A stretch of DNA of 22,683 bases from a virus, in the IMG/VR virus record IMGVR_UViG_3300029787_000286, positions 3,160-25,842 of that record. The stretch is one strand, 5' to 3'. Each line of letters begins with the position of its first letter. Positions within the stretch are counted from its first letter, which is position 1. Position numbers and translations under genes: made by a program. Under the pieces are notes generated by a model, which was given only the letters and a program-made list of their open reading frames with translations, was not told where the DNA came from and did not search any database. Of the stretch, positions 3,813 through 22,683 are shown piece after piece.

Positions 3813-6082
3813 TATTCTTGCCTCGTTATTTCGTTGAAGTAGCCCACAGTCGAGGCACTGTTAATTGTGCAAGGGAGGTGGCTGCTGTTGACCAACTCGA
3901 TCTTCACTTTGTCTCCCCGCGATTTCACAGGGAACTGCCATACGTCTGTAAGCAAAGCTGGCTTACCAACGATGTTAGTAGAGGAGCCAAGAAAGCGACC
4001 TGTCATTGTGTAGGTTTTTGCGTCACGGTTTTCTGGCGTGACTACCGCCTGGAAGAACCCTGTGTCCGTGAAGTAAACGCGCATGGTACGCATCTGAAAC
4101 CGCCCACGTATAATGCTGGAGTTGTCAGCCTCACGGACGTATTGCTTGGAGAACTCAACGCGCATTTCGTAAGGCATTCCAAAAGTCACCGCTGCGGCTG
4201 AATAGTTTCCCACGGCTGTTACACTGGTGCCTGTAGTTCCTCCCACATAAGTCAGGGCTAACTTCTTACCTGCGTCTGTAGAAAAAGCAGCGGGTAGGAT
4301 AGCTTCTATTTTTTCACGGTGAGCATAGGGAGTAGTCCATGTGGTTTTTCCCGTGCCACTAGAATAACTGCCACTGATATCGGTTCTGGAATCGAGCATT
4401 ATAGCGTGACCCAGCGTAGCGTCCTTCGTCTCTGTCATAAGGGGGATACGCTCTAGGGTCTTAGTGCCGTTGCGATCAGCAAGGATATATAAGTGCCCTG
4501 CAATTACTCCCATGCCTTTTACGCTGGTGCAATTTAGGTTCCACTTAGTCCACGCACTTTGGGCTTTATCCGCACCATCAAAATACACGGTGTAGACATA
4601 GAGTTCATCATAGTCTCCGCTCGATGCTACTTTATTTGTGTAGCAGAACAGACGGCCTGTTGTTGGATCACCCGCCATCATCGTAACATCAGCAGGAACG
4701 TAGCCTTCTGCGTGTTTGGTGATGTCGATAGCTACGTTGGTCAGCGTATCGTCCTCAACGAAATACTCGTAGATCACTGAGTTGGCACCTGACTTACCCG
4801 CAAAGTAGAGTTCATCGCCCAGAGCGACAGGCTTGCATAGGTTATCTGTTGAGTAGTTGGTGGCGAGATCAACCACAGCGGAAGAGGGTGTTAGTGCCCC
4901 TGACGTAGACAGTTCAAATTGGGCACGGTCTGCCGATAAGAATAACGCCTTACGGAACGGAACTGCCCATCTGAGAAGAGTTACCTTTGTGGTGGACGCA
5001 GCTACGTCAATAGAGTCCGTGTCTAACACCTCGGCAGCTTTGTCGGGCCATAAGTTAAAGAAGTCACCGGACTGCGAAAAGAAGACGTTTTCGTCAGACA
5101 AGAACCCCAGACGGTTACGGAAGAAGAACGCATCCGACATAGTACGCCCAACAAATTGAGGGTTGGGTACTGACAATATGTCACCGACAGAACGGGAGGA
5201 CCACGTTACTGTAGACAAAGTCCACGTGCCGTTAGCCTCTCGTACCAGCTTATGGGGCATGGTTGTAGCATCAAAAGAATTTGAGAGACTGGGGTCTACT
5301 GTTTCCTTCCAAGCCTGAATGTCATCATCGTAGATCACAAAGTAGTCATCGAAATCTGAGGCGGTATTGGTAATGCCAAACACGCCAACTTCGCCGCTGG
5401 CTGTTAGATCACCAAAGCTGTCTTTGTATCCAACAACGGTAGGTACAACAGCAGCACTATCATCGTGACTGGCAGCAGACGAGGTGCCGAAGCCACGGGT
5501 ACATCCGGTAAGATCGTTAGTGCTAATTCCTGTATAGGTAATGATCTCGTCGTTGATCTTTACGCCACCCTTGGTGGGAAAGCCTGTGGTACTGGCGAGA
5601 GTAATAGTACTTACTGAAGTGTTGATAGCCCCGTTCAATGTACTTGCCACTGCCGTTCCCATTGCCGTGACTTTGTTCCTATTAACCACGATTGTGTAAT
5701 CAGCAATGGTAACAAACGCTAAGTCATTTTGAGGGTCAGCCGTTGTGAGGTAGGTCGTTATGTCAGAGGAGTAAGAATTAACGGTCTTCGCTGCATCGTT
5801 AATAACGTCATAGACTTTTACAACACCAGCAGTATCCACAATCACGGCGTACTGTTCTGTAGGATCACGATCAATCGTGTGAAATGCGTTGGTTCCTGAA
5901 CTGGCTAAACCAGTAACAGAGAGAACGTATTGAGATGAGGGACGTTTCTCAAAACCGCCTGTTACAACTGACAATAGAGTGTTGTTTGCTTCTTGGACTT
6001 GACTGGTAAGACGCACGTTGTGTGGTTGCCTGGATACACCATTGAACAAAGCCTTTATCGGCTGCTCAATAAGTCTTCCCAT
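3812..6082 (-). CDS. Tail tubular protein B (T7 gp12-like nozzle)
   Basis: A 756-residue protein, close in length to T7 gp12 (794). The N-terminus (MGRLIEQPIKALFNGVSRQP, then EANN and EKRPS near residues 31-49) is the conserved opening of this family: a Q-S/P-I-K start, a GxSxQP motif and a KRP motif. gp12 forms the hexameric nozzle at the tip of the short tail. The rest is beta-rich, with repeated aromatic strands typical of the propeller. Residues about 149-215 contain a distinct beta module (TLASTTGFPTKGGVKINDEI, then a TRGFGT motif and a His) resembling a small domain found in many phage tail proteins. The start overlaps the stop of tail tubular A as TAATG. Confidence 0.93.
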   Translation of the reverse strand: MGRLIEQPIKALFNGVSRQPHNVRLTSQVQEANNTLLSVVTGGFEKRPSSQYVLSVTGLASSGTNAFHTIDRDPTEQYAVIVDTAGVVKVYDVINDAAKTVNSYSSDITTYLTTADPQNDLAFVTIADYTIVVNRNKVTAMGTAVASTLNGAINTSVSTITLASTTGFPTKGGVKINDEIITYTGISTNDLTGCTRGFGTSSAASHDDSAAVVPTVVGYKDSFGDLTASGEVGVFGITNTASDFDDYFVIYDDDIQAWKETVDPSLSNSFDATTMPHKLVREANGTWTLSTVTWSSRSVGDILSVPNPQFVGRTMSDAFFFRNRLGFLSDENVFFSQSGDFFNLWPDKAAEVLDTDSIDVAASTTKVTLLRWAVPFRKALFLSADRAQFELSTSGALTPSSAVVDLATNYSTDNLCKPVALGDELYFAGKSGANSVIYEYFVEDDTLTNVAIDITKHAEGYVPADVTMMAGDPTTGRLFCYTNKVASSGDYDELYVYTVYFDGADKAQSAWTKWNLNCTSVKGMGVIAGHLYILADRNGTKTLERIPLMTETKDATLGHAIMLDSRTDISGSYSSGTGKTTWTTPYAHREKIEAILPAAFSTDAGKKLALTYVGGTTGTSVTAVGNYSAAAVTFGMPYEMRVEFSKQYVREADNSSIIRGRFQMRTMRVYFTDTGFFQAVVTPENRDAKTYTMTGRFLGSSTNIVGKPALLTDVWQFPVKSRGDKVKIELVNSSHLPCTINSASTVGYFNEITRQE

Positions 6083-6764: not shown

Positions 6765-7748
6765 TTACGAAGTCTTAAATTCAACTGCGAGTTCTGGACG
6801 GAGAACTCCGTGACCGACCGCCATCTTGGCGACCATGAAGTCTTCCTGGCGACGAACATCACGCTCTGTTTCCATAGCGAGGTCCATCAATTTCAGAGTA
6901 CCCACGGCTTCAGGGCACCACATGATGCCTGTAGTCGTGGAGTAGTTAGCGCGATACTTCGAGTAGACGCTCGTGTCCGAAGTCTCGTTAGCTGTTGGCA
7001 TCAGGTTCGAGCGGATAATACTTACACCGTCGATCTGAATTACGTTGCCGTTACCAGCAACACCACCAGCTTGCTCACCGTAATCCCTGTTCAATACAAG
7101 GTAACCGTGTGAGGAATCGACGGCGTATTTGATTGCATCAAACACATCAGCGTTTACCACAAGGTAACGAGGCATATCTTCAGGGACGTTCTTGTTATAG
7201 AGCGCAATGTTGGCCTCACGGATATGGTCAATCCATGACTTACCCGTTGTGCCAGCTATTGAACTGTTAACAAGAGCGGAGTCGGTAATGGTGTTACCCG
7301 CAGGGAACGGACCATCAGCCGAAGTACGAGCCGCAAGAACGATCTGACGTAGGACGTTCTTGTCAAACTCACGAGCCAACGAACGACCAAGCTCTTGTGA
7401 GAACTCACTCGTTACGTCGAAGTGTGACATCTTTTCATCGAGATCATAGATCGCGGTGTGAGACACGAGAAGGCCATCAATCGTGATGGTGACTTCTGTC
7501 GTATCGATGTCGTTGCCAAGCAGTTGCTGTCCAGCCTCCATATATTCACTGGTTGCGCGCCAAGTTTTGGGAAATTGTGCCGACTTCCCGAACTCGATGT
7601 TTCTGACAACGTGCTTGTCTAAGGTTACAACCTTTTCCGTAAAGGCGGTAAGAACTTCACCACCAAATACTTTTAAGAAAAGATTTCTATCGTCCGAAGT
7701 GGACTGCCCGTAACCAAAACGGGCGGGAGTGCTTGTTACACCAGCCAT
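6765..7748 (-). CDS. Major capsid protein (T7 gp10-like, HK97 fold)
   Basis: A 327-residue protein, slightly shorter than T7 gp10A (345). It opens with FGYGQSTSDDRNLFLKVFGG, followed by EVLTAF, a typical podophage capsid start. The middle contains the LDEKMSHFDVTSEFSQELGR helix region, and the C-terminal part contains a Met-Trp-Cys-Pro-Glu-Ala-Val-Gly-Thr segment and ETERDVRRQEDFMVAKMAVG, close to the T7 gp10 ending. The SD GGGAGA lies 7 nt before the ATG. It is preceded by a candidate phage promoter (8225) and the small virion protein gene, and followed by a strong terminator, which would give a high-level capsid transcript. Confidence 0.95.
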   Translation of the reverse strand: MAGVTSTPARFGYGQSTSDDRNLFLKVFGGEVLTAFTEKVVTLDKHVVRNIEFGKSAQFPKTWRATSEYMEAGQQLLGNDIDTTEVTITIDGLLVSHTAIYDLDEKMSHFDVTSEFSQELGRSLAREFDKNVLRQIVLAARTSADGPFPAGNTITDSALVNSSIAGTTGKSWIDHIREANIALYNKNVPEDMPRYLVVNADVFDAIKYAVDSSHGYLVLNRDYGEQAGGVAGNGNVIQIDGVSIIRSNLMPTANETSDTSVYSKYRANYSTTTGIMWCPEAVGTLKLMDLAMETERDVRRQEDFMVAKMAVGHGVLRPELAVEFKTS

Positions 7749-19549: not shown

Positions 19550-19576
19550 TCTCTCTACACTAGGGGGAATTAATTG
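19550..19576 (-). promoter_or_regulatory. Candidate phage RNAP promoter for the replication operon
   Basis: The minus strand reads AATTCCCCCTAGTGTAGAGA within the 75-bp gap between the RNAP C-terminal gene and DUF6378. It shares CCC-M-CTA-S-K-GT-R-G with the site upstream of the capsid genes, with the same predicted +1 G (19558) and an AT-rich upstream stretch (ATTAATT). The leader would be 27 nt. T7-type phages place class II promoters just after the RNAP gene, which fits. No experimental support. Confidence 0.5.
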
Positions 19577-19581
19577 TAGTT

Positions 19582-19601
19582 CACTTAATAATAAACCACT
19601 G
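19582..19601. repeat. Left copy of the 20-bp inverted repeat flanking the RNAP cassette
   Basis: On the minus strand this reads CAGTGGTTTATTATTAAGTG, just after the RNAP C-terminal stop codon. It matches the plus-strand sequence at 22441-22460 in 18 of 20 positions, so the two copies are inverted relative to each other and enclose the four-gene RNAP cassette. Confidence 0.7.
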
Positions 19602-19606
19602 TACTT

Positions 19607-21259
19607 TTAACTGAAAAAATATGGTGCATCCGAAACGCTCTTAACATCGAAGGTGCCAAGCTCTGGTGGTGTAGGCAGAGCAACCTTGTGTCTCATTAGA
19701 TTGTTATGAAACTCTTCGAGTATCGGCCTGTCATATATTCGCACGAACTCACGGCGTATGATCTTGTTGAGCCTATCCACATCACAGGCGTGGACACCAA
19801 TGCTGTCATGTATACATGCCCAGGATGTAATAGGGTTCTCTTCACTGGCACCCATCATGACCACAGCCTGGAGGTGTGCAGCATCATGGGCATGGATGAT
19901 GTTAGGAGAAGAGGCCAGCGATTGCTTGCGTTTGTTTAAACCCATCGATGGTTCCTCGTACCAAAGCACAGCCTTCCCAAAGAGTGTCTTAACTTCCTTC
20001 TTGTTGTGATTGATGTACGCTTGTCTGATCTTCATGCCCATTGGTGTAGTAAATTCTAATGGGATGTTCTCTTCGGCCAGAGCAGTGGCGCAGCCCTTGA
20101 AGTACTCCATTACCTCCATTGGTTTGCGGATCGTCTCACCGAGAGATTCAACCAGTGCATCTCTCAAGTAGGTAGCGTTAGCAATCTTACTTCCAGGTAT
20201 GTGATCAAGGTGGCCGTCCTTGATGAACTGATCCCTCAATCCTTGCGGGGTCACAGAGTATGGGATGGTCATCACCCCTCGCTTTACCGTCGAGCGGGTA
20301 ATCTGACCGTGACAATTCTTAGCTGCTTCATCACTCTCTAGATCACGGGCAATGACCTTGTTAATCTCTTGAGCCTGGATGCCATAGATATCATAGCGTT
20401 CTGCACTCGATGTCATGTTGACAACCTCTGCTGCACGGGAGTCTCTTGACCATGCGCTCAAATGCTGTAGGCCAGAGGCCGTAGCGTCGAGGTTGATGGG
20501 CATGTGCGATACGAACTCTTCCTTGTGCGTTGCCCATCCCTCGTACTCCTTGCAAGCAGCGAGGAATTGAAAGGGTTCATCAGCCTGTGCCCAGAATCTC
20601 TCACCATCCAGCGGGTTGGCTGCGCAATCAAGTATCATTGGATCATTGTCAATAACCCACTGTACTCTTTCATCAAAAGAAAGCTTGTCCATTCCAAACG
20701 TATTAGCCAACCTGATAGCCAGCCAGTAGTGGCCTCGCTTGCCCAGCTTCTTACCTTCGGCAAACATGATGAGTCCACGAGACAGGTCATCGTTCACAAA
20801 ATTCAGGTCTTGTGACTGAGGGTACAGCCTACCTCTAAAGTCAGGGCAGTGCGGAATCCAAAACGTCTTGCCCTTGAGGTCATGCGCCATGTTAATCTTC
20901 CGAAACAGAGCTTCCCTCTGTCCCTGGAACTTGGCGTTAGCGGAGTGAACACGCTCTCGCTCTGCCTTGACGGACATCCGTTCCTTCTTGTCCATGTTCT
21001 CCCATACACCGTCAGGTACAGACGGAGGGAAGGCAAGCTGATCAGACGGTGGGATGTTGCCCAACGTCTCGTTCCTTGCGACTAGCTCTTCGACCACCTC
21101 AAGTACGTATGTGTTCACTAGTAGTGGTGTCTTACCTAGCACATCACAGACGTACATCACCTCGTCACTGATGGGCCGTCTCAGTGAGGCCGTGTGTTCA
21201 TGCAAGCCGTACTTTAAGAACGGCTCCTTGATCATATAGTAACCACCAACGTAACTCAT
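19607..21259 (-). CDS. T7-type RNA polymerase, C-terminal catalytic fragment
   Basis: The ATG at 21259 is fixed by a strong SD (AAGGAGA, 6 nt), and it overlaps the stop of the membrane-protein gene (ATGA). The 550-residue product starts SYVGGYYMIKEPFLKYG, aligning with T7 RNAP just after its PPKPW segment (about residue 280), and contains the catalytic set: DFRGRLYP (R144, Y146), INLDATASGLQHL (D258 = T7 D537), TRSTVKRGVMTIPYSV (K326, Y334 = K631, Y639), PNIIHAHDAAHL (His 457) and CIHDSIG (D485 = D812). The C-terminus (PYFFS) mirrors T7 FAFA. All polymerisation residues are here; the N-terminal domain is encoded separately upstream. It should be active only with that partner. Confidence 0.95.
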   Translation of the reverse strand: MSYVGGYYMIKEPFLKYGLHEHTASLRRPISDEVMYVCDVLGKTPLLVNTYVLEVVEELVARNETLGNIPPSDQLAFPPSVPDGVWENMDKKERMSVKAERERVHSANAKFQGQREALFRKINMAHDLKGKTFWIPHCPDFRGRLYPQSQDLNFVNDDLSRGLIMFAEGKKLGKRGHYWLAIRLANTFGMDKLSFDERVQWVIDNDPMILDCAANPLDGERFWAQADEPFQFLAACKEYEGWATHKEEFVSHMPINLDATASGLQHLSAWSRDSRAAEVVNMTSSAERYDIYGIQAQEINKVIARDLESDEAAKNCHGQITRSTVKRGVMTIPYSVTPQGLRDQFIKDGHLDHIPGSKIANATYLRDALVESLGETIRKPMEVMEYFKGCATALAEENIPLEFTTPMGMKIRQAYINHNKKEVKTLFGKAVLWYEEPSMGLNKRKQSLASSPNIIHAHDAAHLQAVVMMGASEENPITSWACIHDSIGVHACDVDRLNKIIRREFVRIYDRPILEEFHNNLMRHKVALPTPPELGTFDVKSVSDAPYFFS

Positions 21260-21450
21260 GCGCGTCTCCTTCGTATCCACCAGATAAGTTGTGCAAATGT
21301 TTGGATGGGCCAGACGATAGCTACTGCCCCAAAGATAAACACATTGATCTCTTCGTATGACAGGCCCGTGATATCCACGATCATGTAGAGTATCTCGACT
21401 GCCTTATCGAAGCTTACGTCAATCCATTCGATCCCACTGTTTGCTGCCAT
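21256..21450 (-). CDS. Small membrane protein between the RNAP halves
   Basis: I take the ATG at 21450, preceded by AGGAGA with 6 nt spacing; that SD sits at the stop codon of the RNAP N-terminal gene. The 64-residue product has an acidic N-terminal half, a single membrane segment (about residues 35-58, INVFIFGAVAIVWPIQTFAQ, then LIWW) and a basic end (IRRRRA), predicting the C-terminus in the cytoplasm. Short phage proteins with an E-E-I-N-V-x-I-F motif are widespread but uncharacterised. It has no twin membrane spans or holin-like features beyond size. Its stop overlaps the RNAP C-terminal start, so translation is coupled. Confidence 0.75.
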   Translation of the reverse strand: MAANSGIEWIDVSFDKAVEILYMIVDITGLSYEEINVFIFGAVAIVWPIQTFAQLIWWIRRRRA

Positions 21451-21574
21451 GTGTGTCTCTCCTATCAAGCTGCTTGCGTTTGTTTCTGTCGTAGTGCCGC
21501 CGCGATTTGACTATCCGCTTCCGATACTTCGGACTTCGTAAGTCCCTCGCCACTGGATTTACCTTTCCCTTCAT
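21419..21574 (-). CDS. ArfA-like small basic protein, overlapping the RNAP N-terminal gene
   Basis: A 51-residue, highly basic protein in a different frame from the RNAP fragment. The ATG at 21574 has a good SD (GGAG, 5 nt). The sequence NPVARDLRSPKYRKRIVKSR, followed by YDRNKRK, resembles the core of alternative ribosome-rescue factor ArfA (E. coli: A-L-L-H-D-P-L-F-R-Q-R-V-E-x-x-K-K ... Y-x-R-K), and similar short proteins are common in phages. ArfA frees ribosomes stalled on mRNAs lacking a stop codon by recruiting RF2. Whether the phage version rescues ribosomes or has another purpose is unknown. The gene overlaps both the RNAP N-terminal tail and the membrane protein start. Confidence 0.68.
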   Translation of the reverse strand: MKGKVNPVARDLRSPKYRKRIVKSRRHYDRNKRKQLDRRDTHGSKQWDRMD

Positions 21575-22439
21575 GCCATCTCCATTCCGCTGGCTCACAC
21601 AGCATGGGTAACAGGAAGGGACGATTGAACTCGCACCTCCTGTGATCCTGCTCGATGGCATCACGTGCTATCTGTGTAAGCTTCACTGTTTTCTCTGTGT
21701 GTCTTGTTCGACCATAGCCTCGACCAACGAGGGACATCTCGAACCATCCGTTGCCATGCCGCACCAGTGTATCGAGGCACTTCATGCCTACGTGCAGCTT
21801 GACCTCCTTCGCCCAGTCCAGGCGATCAAGGTCAGTGGACAGTCGCATGAACTTACGAGCGGCACGAGTGTCGATGCGCTTGCAATTCTTTGTCATCACC
21901 TTGAATAGGTTGATACTGCCTGACTCACGTGCCTCTCGATACTGTCGCTCTTTCCATAGATCGAACTCACGTTCCATCTTTATGTTAGCACCAATGAGCA
22001 GAGCCGCTGCTGTCCAAGGTCGAGAGTGTGATACCTCTGGCTGTAGTCCAGCAAGTACAGTGCGGATCGTGACTGCTGCTATCTTCTCGGCATCGAGGCA
22101 CAGGATAGGGAGCCACCATATAGCAGTGTGCCCCTTCTTACTGAACCCAAGCTGGGCTGCTGCCTGTTCCTCCTTGATGCCAGCAACGAGAGGTCTCATG
22201 CACTGGTCTACCAGCTTGGACCCTACGTCAGTATCAGCAAAGGCACTGCGTCCCGTCTCACTGAACTTGCTGACATCCTTGTTCAATTCATTCTGATATC
22301 TCTGGACACCACGCTCGATGCCACTGGTCTCCCACTCTACATTACGTGCAATGGTAGCCTCCCTCTCCTCGAATGTTCGAGGCGAAGCTTGTGTCACGTA
22401 TGTGTCACAACTATGTCCTTGATATATATACTTTTTCAT
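21465..22439 (-). CDS. T7-type RNA polymerase, N-terminal fragment
   Basis: A 324-residue protein. Residues ~50-288 align with the T7 RNAP N-terminal domain: FSETGRSAFADTDVGSKLVD, the AAVTIRTVLAGL helix, the ALLIGANIKMEREFDL segment (T7 ASAIGRAIEDE), RLDWAKEVKLHVGMKCLDTL (T7 HVGVRCIEML) and PFLLPMLCEPAEW (T7 PPKPW). That domain handles promoter AT-rich recognition, melting and nascent RNA. The fragment stops being RNAP-like at W288; the last 36 residues are a low-complexity K/S/Q/A tail that coincides with the start of the ArfA-like gene. AGGA lies 7 nt after a CCACTGG spacer upstream of the ATG. With the 550-residue fragment downstream the total (about 840 RNAP residues) nearly equals T7 RNAP (883). 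Confidence 0.92.
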   Translation of the reverse strand: MKKYIYQGHSCDTYVTQASPRTFEEREATIARNVEWETSGIERGVQRYQNELNKDVSKFSETGRSAFADTDVGSKLVDQCMRPLVAGIKEEQAAAQLGFSKKGHTAIWWLPILCLDAEKIAAVTIRTVLAGLQPEVSHSRPWTAAALLIGANIKMEREFDLWKERQYREARESGSINLFKVMTKNCKRIDTRAARKFMRLSTDLDRLDWAKEVKLHVGMKCLDTLVRHGNGWFEMSLVGRGYGRTRHTEKTVKLTQIARDAIEQDHRRCEFNRPFLLPMLCEPAEWRWHEGKGKSSGEGLTKSEVSEADSQIAAALRQKQTQAA

Positions 22440-22440
22440 C

Positions 22441-22460
22441 CAGTGGTTTCCTATTAAGTG
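22441..22460. repeat. Right copy of the 20-bp inverted repeat flanking the RNAP cassette
   Basis: The plus strand reads CAGTGGTTTCCTATTAAGTG immediately upstream of the RNAP N-terminal start codon. It is 18/20 identical to the minus strand at 19582-19601. On the minus strand it contains the AGGA SD of the RNAP gene, and it also forms part of a perfect 8-bp palindrome (TGGTTTCC / GGAAACCA, 22444-22451 and 22463-22470). Confidence 0.7.
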
Positions 22461-22570
22461 TTGGAAACCAAGGGTGACAGCGGGTTACAGGAAACCCGGA
22501 TCGGAATCATAATCCGCGTGTCGGGGGTTCAAGTCCCTCCTCCGCTACCAACTTTCCCTTAGTTTCCAAC
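22460..22570. repeat. Inverted arm-like repeats around the tRNA-derived att core
   Basis: GTTGGAAACCAAGGG at 22460-22474 and CCCTTAGTTTCCAAC at 22556-22570 are inverted repeats with 14 of 15 pairs matching, separated by 81 bp that contain the tRNA fragment. The GTTTCC hexamer (either strand) occurs four times around the core: 22446, 22463, 22490 and 22562. Such symmetrical repeats beside a tRNA core are what integrase or excisionase binding sites look like; this interpretation is inferred. Confidence 0.7.
22502..22550 (+). other. attP: Probable phage attachment site core: 3' half of a tRNA-Met(CAU)
   Basis: The 49 bp from the anticodon stem to CCA form the 3' part of a tRNA: a CGGA / TCCG anticodon stem with loop ATCATAA (anticodon CAT at 22508-22510), a GTGTC-type variable region, a T-arm GGGGG-TTCAAGT-CCCTC and an acceptor strand CTCCGCT-A-CCA. 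The 5' half is not a proper tRNA: upstream sequence AGCGGGT partly pairs with the acceptor, but the D-arm has a four-base loop without GG and a mismatch. This is what an integrating phage carries at attP (identity to the host gene's 3' end). The sequence type looks alphaproteobacterial. If the right edge were host DNA the same core would be one prophage end. Confidence 0.78.
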
Positions 22571-22624
22571 GGGTTAGAAGGCATAGTATTGATACCACTT
22601 AACATGACATCACTGTTTGTGGCA

Positions 22625-22681
22625 TCATTGTGTCTTGAAAGCAGCATCAAAAGTGGCTGTTGCTTTCCGTGTTAGATCGTC
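22625..22681 (-). CDS. 3' end of a gene, possibly integrase (partial)
   Basis: Only the last 18 codons are inside the window: the minus strand encodes DDLTRKATATFDAAFKTQ followed by TGA. A helical, amphipathic C-terminus of this kind just upstream of an att site and RNAP gene would fit the end of a tyrosine integrase, which in integrase-bearing marine T7-like phages lies directly before the RNAP gene. There is far too little sequence for a family call. The 185 bp between this stop and the RNAP start hold the att site. Confidence 0.35.
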   Translation of the reverse strand, partial: DDLTRKATATFDAAFKTQ

Positions 22682-22683
22682 CG

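Follow-up and report, generated by a model that had tools for sequence, protein, structure and literature searches.

A putative tRNA-Met attachment site between the integrase gene and a two-gene RNA polymerase in a marine T7-like bacteriophage

Does a fragment of a host tRNA gene, located between the integrase and RNA polymerase (RNAP) genes of a T7-like phage, serve as its attachment site (attP), and what would integration at this place mean for the polymerase? The question arises at the right end of the window, i.e., the whole analyzed stretch of 22,683 bases, which forms the right-hand part of a 25,842-base IMG/VR record. Here, the minus strand carries the 3′ end of an integrase gene, a gap of 185 bases and the gene of the RNAP N subunit. 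The source is a marine T7-like bacteriophage; a T7-type RNAP, a gp2.5-like SSB, a primase/helicase, DNA polymerase A and an exonuclease are all present in a T7-like order. Autographiviridae-like phages are recognized by an RNAP of a single polypeptide, but two separate genes were found in all five contigs of the clade, and we therefore use the label “T7-like” and do not assign the phage to the family. Searches of IMG/VR with RNAP returned four relatives, L177, L178, L179 and L180 (the C subunit of L177 is 82% identical), and no clade contigs beyond these were found in IMG/VR using the integrase, RNAP N, RNAP C and the att pattern as queries.

The proposed attP core (22502–22550, plus strand; CGGA...TACCA) starts at the anticodon stem and ends with CCA; over this 3′ part of tRNA-Met(CAU), it is identical to the alphaproteobacterial gene at 49 of 49 bases. 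A genome scan recovered the exact core from at least 118 genome stretches, and ARAGORN called a tRNA-Met over it in 111 of the 118 listed; all 80 titles among the matches listed are Alphaproteobacteria by name. Exact matches in such number, mostly within tRNA-Met, are far beyond chance, and the 49 bases are indeed the 3′ half of a real tRNA, as originally predicted. Three of the seven listed stretches without a tRNA call (L126, L133, L163) have the 5′ half cut by the stretch end. In the other four (L064, L100, L109, L138), the 5′ side is present along with the exact core; here, different elements using this tRNA-Met may have left att remnants (attR) behind. Among viral contigs, the exact core was found in 57 stretches, and INPHARED gave zero matches to the 49-mer.

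Phages which integrate into tRNA genes generally contain that portion of the tRNA which lies past the crossover. Since identity to the tRNA starts at the anticodon stem or loop, the anticodon loop (ATCATAA, 22506–22512, plus strand) is, judging from the sequence comparison, the probable crossover (overlap) region. The core of L177 has at least 30 exact bases in common with that of the window, and its identity block starts at the loop: both phages are identical from TTGGTAGC through GATTATGATT, followed by a one-base difference in the anticodon stem.

As expected of an attP, this block of identity to the 3′ part of a host tRNA adjoins an integrase gene. The last 18 codons and the stop codon of a tyrosine integrase are located at 22625–22681 (minus strand) and encode DDLTRKATATFDAAFKTQ, while the remainder of the gene lies beyond the contig end. 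The peptide resembles the end of the L177 integrase, EVSRKASATFDAKFTTHM, so that the integrase end suspected at this position was correctly recognized; the whole gene was found in L177 (226–1323; PF00589, 80.7 bits), where its frame is intact. L177 shows the same order as the window (complete integrase, core on the opposite strand, RNAP) and is the sole relative with the same site. L178 starts inside the RNAP gene and is, therefore, uninformative on the site. In L179 and L180, RNAP starts directly after the integrase end with no core between them, and both contigs break inside the integrase.

A junction with a host tRNA was detected in the MAG G005 (Magnetovibrio sp. MED 128563; L059/L187). 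In L187, an intact tRNA-Met (7492–7568) is followed by a phage-like arm and an integrase 3′ end pointing back at the tRNA. The phage part shares 91% nucleotide identity with L177 over 424 bases, and the integrase 97–98% of its amino acids. By its sequence, the junction is attL-like and corresponds to the attL predicted by the attP model, albeit on a partly chimeric contig. The integrase breaks off at position 7943 of L187, where the GC content rises from 0.443 to 0.561, as compared to 0.436–0.49 elsewhere in the MAG, and five Ns occur in 7574–7613. This GC jump and the Ns nearby make a misassembly likely, and the part right of 7943 is probably a misjoin; according to our reading of its ORFs, it runs into a phosphonate (phn-like) operon. 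Possibly, the junction itself is a false join through the shared 49 bases. G005 displays the attL-like junction only, as attR was not found in it; RNAP was not found there either, in a search run without a positive control. Among 385 alphaproteobacterial genomes drawn evenly, a close integrase was present in G005 only, and 15 other genomes matching the integrase at E ≤ 1e-12 were at most 36% identical. A search for an empty site beside this host flank covered 48 genomes from the MAG’s family; 44 of them gave matches, most of which comprised just the tRNA, and a clean empty site did not emerge.

A full prophage of the clade was found neither in G005 nor among the 385 genomes. This would fit a relic, i.e., a phage which once integrated but whose site is now unused, or a transient integration with lytic infection as the rule. 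T7-like cyanophages are described as integrating without forming stable lysogens (PMC8776855), and integration therefore need not mean stable lysogeny. On the other hand, the exact identity over 49 bases, the intact integrase frame of L177 and inverted arms around the core, which are conserved in L177, argue for present use, and the attL-like junction in the MAG also speaks against a relic. A site that is out of use or used in passing is thus possible but rather doubtful.

The inverted arms are located at 22460–22474 (RNAP side) and 22556–22570 (integrase side) and represent candidate arm-type sites of the integrase; the arm on the integrase side has a counterpart in the MAG junction L187. They are complementary at 14 of 15 positions, confirming the inverted repeats seen in the original prediction. 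The pair is unique in the window (15 bases, at most one mismatch, spacer of 20–150), and none occurred in each of five first-order Markov simulations. When aligned with the window, L177 shows its arms conserved in place, each longer by one base. For 15-base flanks of the core compared without gaps, the best inverted match comprises 14 of the 15 positions in the window, 14 in L026, 13 in L038, 12 in L177 and 10–12 in the remaining 22 T7-like loci that carry the core. L026 (position 14692) and L038 (position 7313), which combine the same tRNA-Met core with strong inverted repeats, belong to a different T7-like cluster.

Four copies of GTTTCC/GGAAAC had also been noticed around the core, and all are present (22446, 22463, 22490, 22562). 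A joint role of the four as integrase sites was rejected, since conservation in comparison with L177 is limited to the two copies within the arms; it does not extend to the one at 22490, and the one at 22446 represents the Shine-Dalgarno region of RNAP. Two copies of the motif CAGTG-N8-TTAAGTG form a further inverted pair, which is weaker and lies outside the first. One of them (22441–22460, plus strand) points toward the core and overlaps the ribosome-binding region of RNAP; the other (22596–22615, minus strand) is situated between the integrase stop and the core, points toward RNAP and is partly conserved in L177 and L187. A third copy (19582–19601, minus strand) lies just downstream of the RNAP C gene, 3 kb away. 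The motif thus occurs in three noncoding places around the RNAP genes, and is weaker in L177.

Instead of binding integrase, or besides doing so, the arms might mainly be an RNA element, forming a long hairpin over the antisense tRNA half in the integrase–RNAP transcript, for instance an RNase III-type processing site or an attenuator before RNAP. The RNA of the RNAP strand folds better than 200 of 200 shuffles in the window (z of −3.74) as well as in L177 (z of −3.83), the arms are paired in both, and the one-base length change in both L177 arms preserves this pairing. However, the antisense tRNA half adds its own structure, the arms are largely conserved and not covarying, and comparable inverted flanks surround the core in L026 and L038, two loci with the site upstream of the integrase. 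Because two sequences only are compared, an RNA role and protein arms are inseparable here; we consider it unlikely that the arms act chiefly in RNA.

The 5′ half preceding the core (22479–22501, plus strand) is degenerate, in agreement with the original prediction: acceptor-like pairing is partly kept, the D arm is absent, and 9 of the 28 bases upstream of the core equal the host tRNA. It is highly improbable that this is a functional tRNA gene, or that a piece of tRNA was captured by chance without any relation to integration. The Rfam match (22479–22547) does align the whole tRNA model with acceptor-like pairing, but it reaches 26.5 bits and remains under the gathering score of 29, and ARAGORN makes no tRNA call in the window. 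Neither program finds a complete functional 5′ half, whose detection would have refuted the original prediction, or the complete cloverleaf expected of a functional tRNA-Met gene. Against chance capture, an integrase adjoins the core and the same site exists in L177.

Thus, an attP of a T7-like phage with a tyrosine integrase is well supported by the exact tRNA 3′ half, the degenerate 5′ half, the adjacent integrase, the conserved arms, a second phage with the same layout and the attL-like junction in the MAG. We estimate the probability of the attP, as originally proposed, at about 85%; this figure covers the attP only and not a switch of RNAP.

What is unusual in the window is the order integrase – antisense tRNA 3′ half – RNAP, along with an RNAP that consists of two proteins. 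The N subunit (21465–22439, minus strand; 324 aa; PF14700, 2.2e-11) matches positions 2–251 of phrog_414, and the C subunit with the catalytic domain (19607–21259, minus strand; 550 aa; PF00940, 3.3e-100) matches positions 248–816. Between them, a small hydrophobic protein of 64 aa is encoded (21256–21450, minus strand), which is conserved but without a Pfam match, and the stop codon of which overlaps the ATG of the C subunit. In L179 and L180, an additional MazG-like protein was seen between the RNAP genes. Since the same break is found in all five contigs (window, L177, L178, L179, L180), at identities to the window of 64–88% for N and 73–82% for C, a sequencing error is excluded. Compared to T7 RNAP, the N subunit aligns to approximately residue 254 and the C subunit from approximately residue 313, and the break is therefore placed near what we take to be the border of the N-terminal and polymerase domains. 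The predicted structures of both subunits had a mean pLDDT of 35.7 and 34.3 and were set aside.

RNAPII of phage N4 is likewise a T7-type polymerase composed of two proteins (a heterodimer). However, its chain 6dt7_B matches the C subunit of the window only from residue 179 on, which means that the N4 break lies elsewhere, and the C subunit scores 494 bits against the T7-like family vs. 174 bits against the N4-like family. An N4-type RNAPII was rejected due to the differing break point and the closer kinship to the T7-like family. No report of this RNAP split was found in the open-access literature.

In the proposed integration, the integrase would bind both arms and recombine the anticodon-loop region with the host tRNA-Met gene. 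The phage would supply the 3′ half, such that the host tRNA would stay whole. In the resulting prophage, the restored tRNA would be followed directly by the integrase, oriented toward it, and the two RNAP genes would be found at the far end, with the host sequence that had followed the tRNA as their new upstream DNA. In the circular or linear phage, a transcript started upstream could cross integrase and attP and reach RNAP, but it could not do so in the prophage. Since integrase and RNAP flank the antisense 3′ half, integration would detach RNAP from the whole of its upstream phage DNA; the original prediction of a separation of RNAP from the DNA to its right follows from this layout.

The promoters around RNAP were searched as well. 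The RNAP strand showed no sigma-70-like site in 21900–22683, and a weak one near the integrase end of L177 is no more than chance. A candidate phage promoter, TTCCCYCTARTGTAGAG (19553–19569, minus strand), is located in the gap after the RNAP genes and before the SSB gene; it is conserved in all five clade contigs (with 2 mismatches in L179 and L180), and no copy of it was found between the core and RNAP. In the record of L177, it recurs once more with 2 mismatches. Based on T7 biology, we infer that RNAP would depend on transcription through integrase and attP. Judging by the layout, the uncoupling from upstream DNA would likely help to keep RNAP quiet after integration, and the integration-dependent RNAP expression suggested in the original prediction is plausible as a switch. 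A stronger version, in which integration is the off-switch of the two-subunit RNAP, excision rejoins it with its promoters and the geometry holds lysogeny instead of or besides a repressor, is put forward as a tentative proposal, which we would not expect to be correct. No report of an integration-dependent T7-like RNAP was found in the open-access literature.

T7-like phages with an integrase and a tRNA attP have been published (PMC8776855, PMC10134795, PMC3861242), a temperate Autographiviridae phage is described (PMC10142737), and HTVC019P and Rhizobium phage Pasto are cited as lysogenizing (PMC10134795). Hence, signs of lysogeny in a T7-like phage, which the original prediction presented as a novelty, were already known from two of these papers (PMC8776855, PMC10134795). 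An attP between integrase and RNAP is known, too, and the antisense 3′ half is the variant found here. In P-SSP7, which like the window is T7-like with an integrase, a tRNA-derived attP and RNAP, the annotation has the integrase ending at 5768 and RNAP starting at 6039; the gap of 270 bases separating them presumably contains the 5′ half of tRNA-Leu. P-SSP7 and S-TIP37 are reported to integrate at tRNA-Leu, with attP downstream of the integrase, and their published motifs match the first half of the tRNA-Leu gene (PMC8776855). Read in this way, the P-SSP7 gap contains a 5′ half in sense to RNAP, whereas the window contains a tRNA-Met 3′ half in antisense. Due to the sense 5′ half, integration of P-SSP7 would put RNAP behind the host tRNA promoter; moreover, its RNAP is not in two genes, unlike that of the window.

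According to its annotation, Pasto resembles the window as a temperate T7-like phage with integrase, opposite-strand tRNA and RNAP, but the annotation gives a complete tRNA-Leu and several genes in between. HTVC019P-type pelagiphages (by annotation) and LUZ100 (PMC10134795) are T7-like with an integrase close to RNAP, as here. Their tRNA-Leu is reported upstream of the integrase (PMC10134795), unlike the site of the window but like the core in 24 contigs with tRNA-Met. The latter comprise those viral stretches, among the 57 containing the core exactly, in which a T7-like RNAP is also encoded (HMM). In each of the 24, the order is core, integrase, RNAP, with all three on one strand; they form 6 clusters at 70% RNAP identity and, therefore, do not represent 24 independent events. 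In one of them, L030, a complete tRNA-Met precedes the integrase, and this contig may represent the end of a prophage.

The RNAP of T7-like phages normally drives lytic growth, and how such a phage stays quiet in its host is poorly understood; the layout described here offers a testable answer. In this clade, integration would have to move RNAP to the other end of the prophage, whereas in all 24 other T7-like contigs with the core, RNAP would stay behind the integrase and the restored tRNA. The contrast of the two layouts bears on whether the position of attP controls RNAP and, since attB is a conserved alphaproteobacterial gene, the system is open to trial in cultured hosts.
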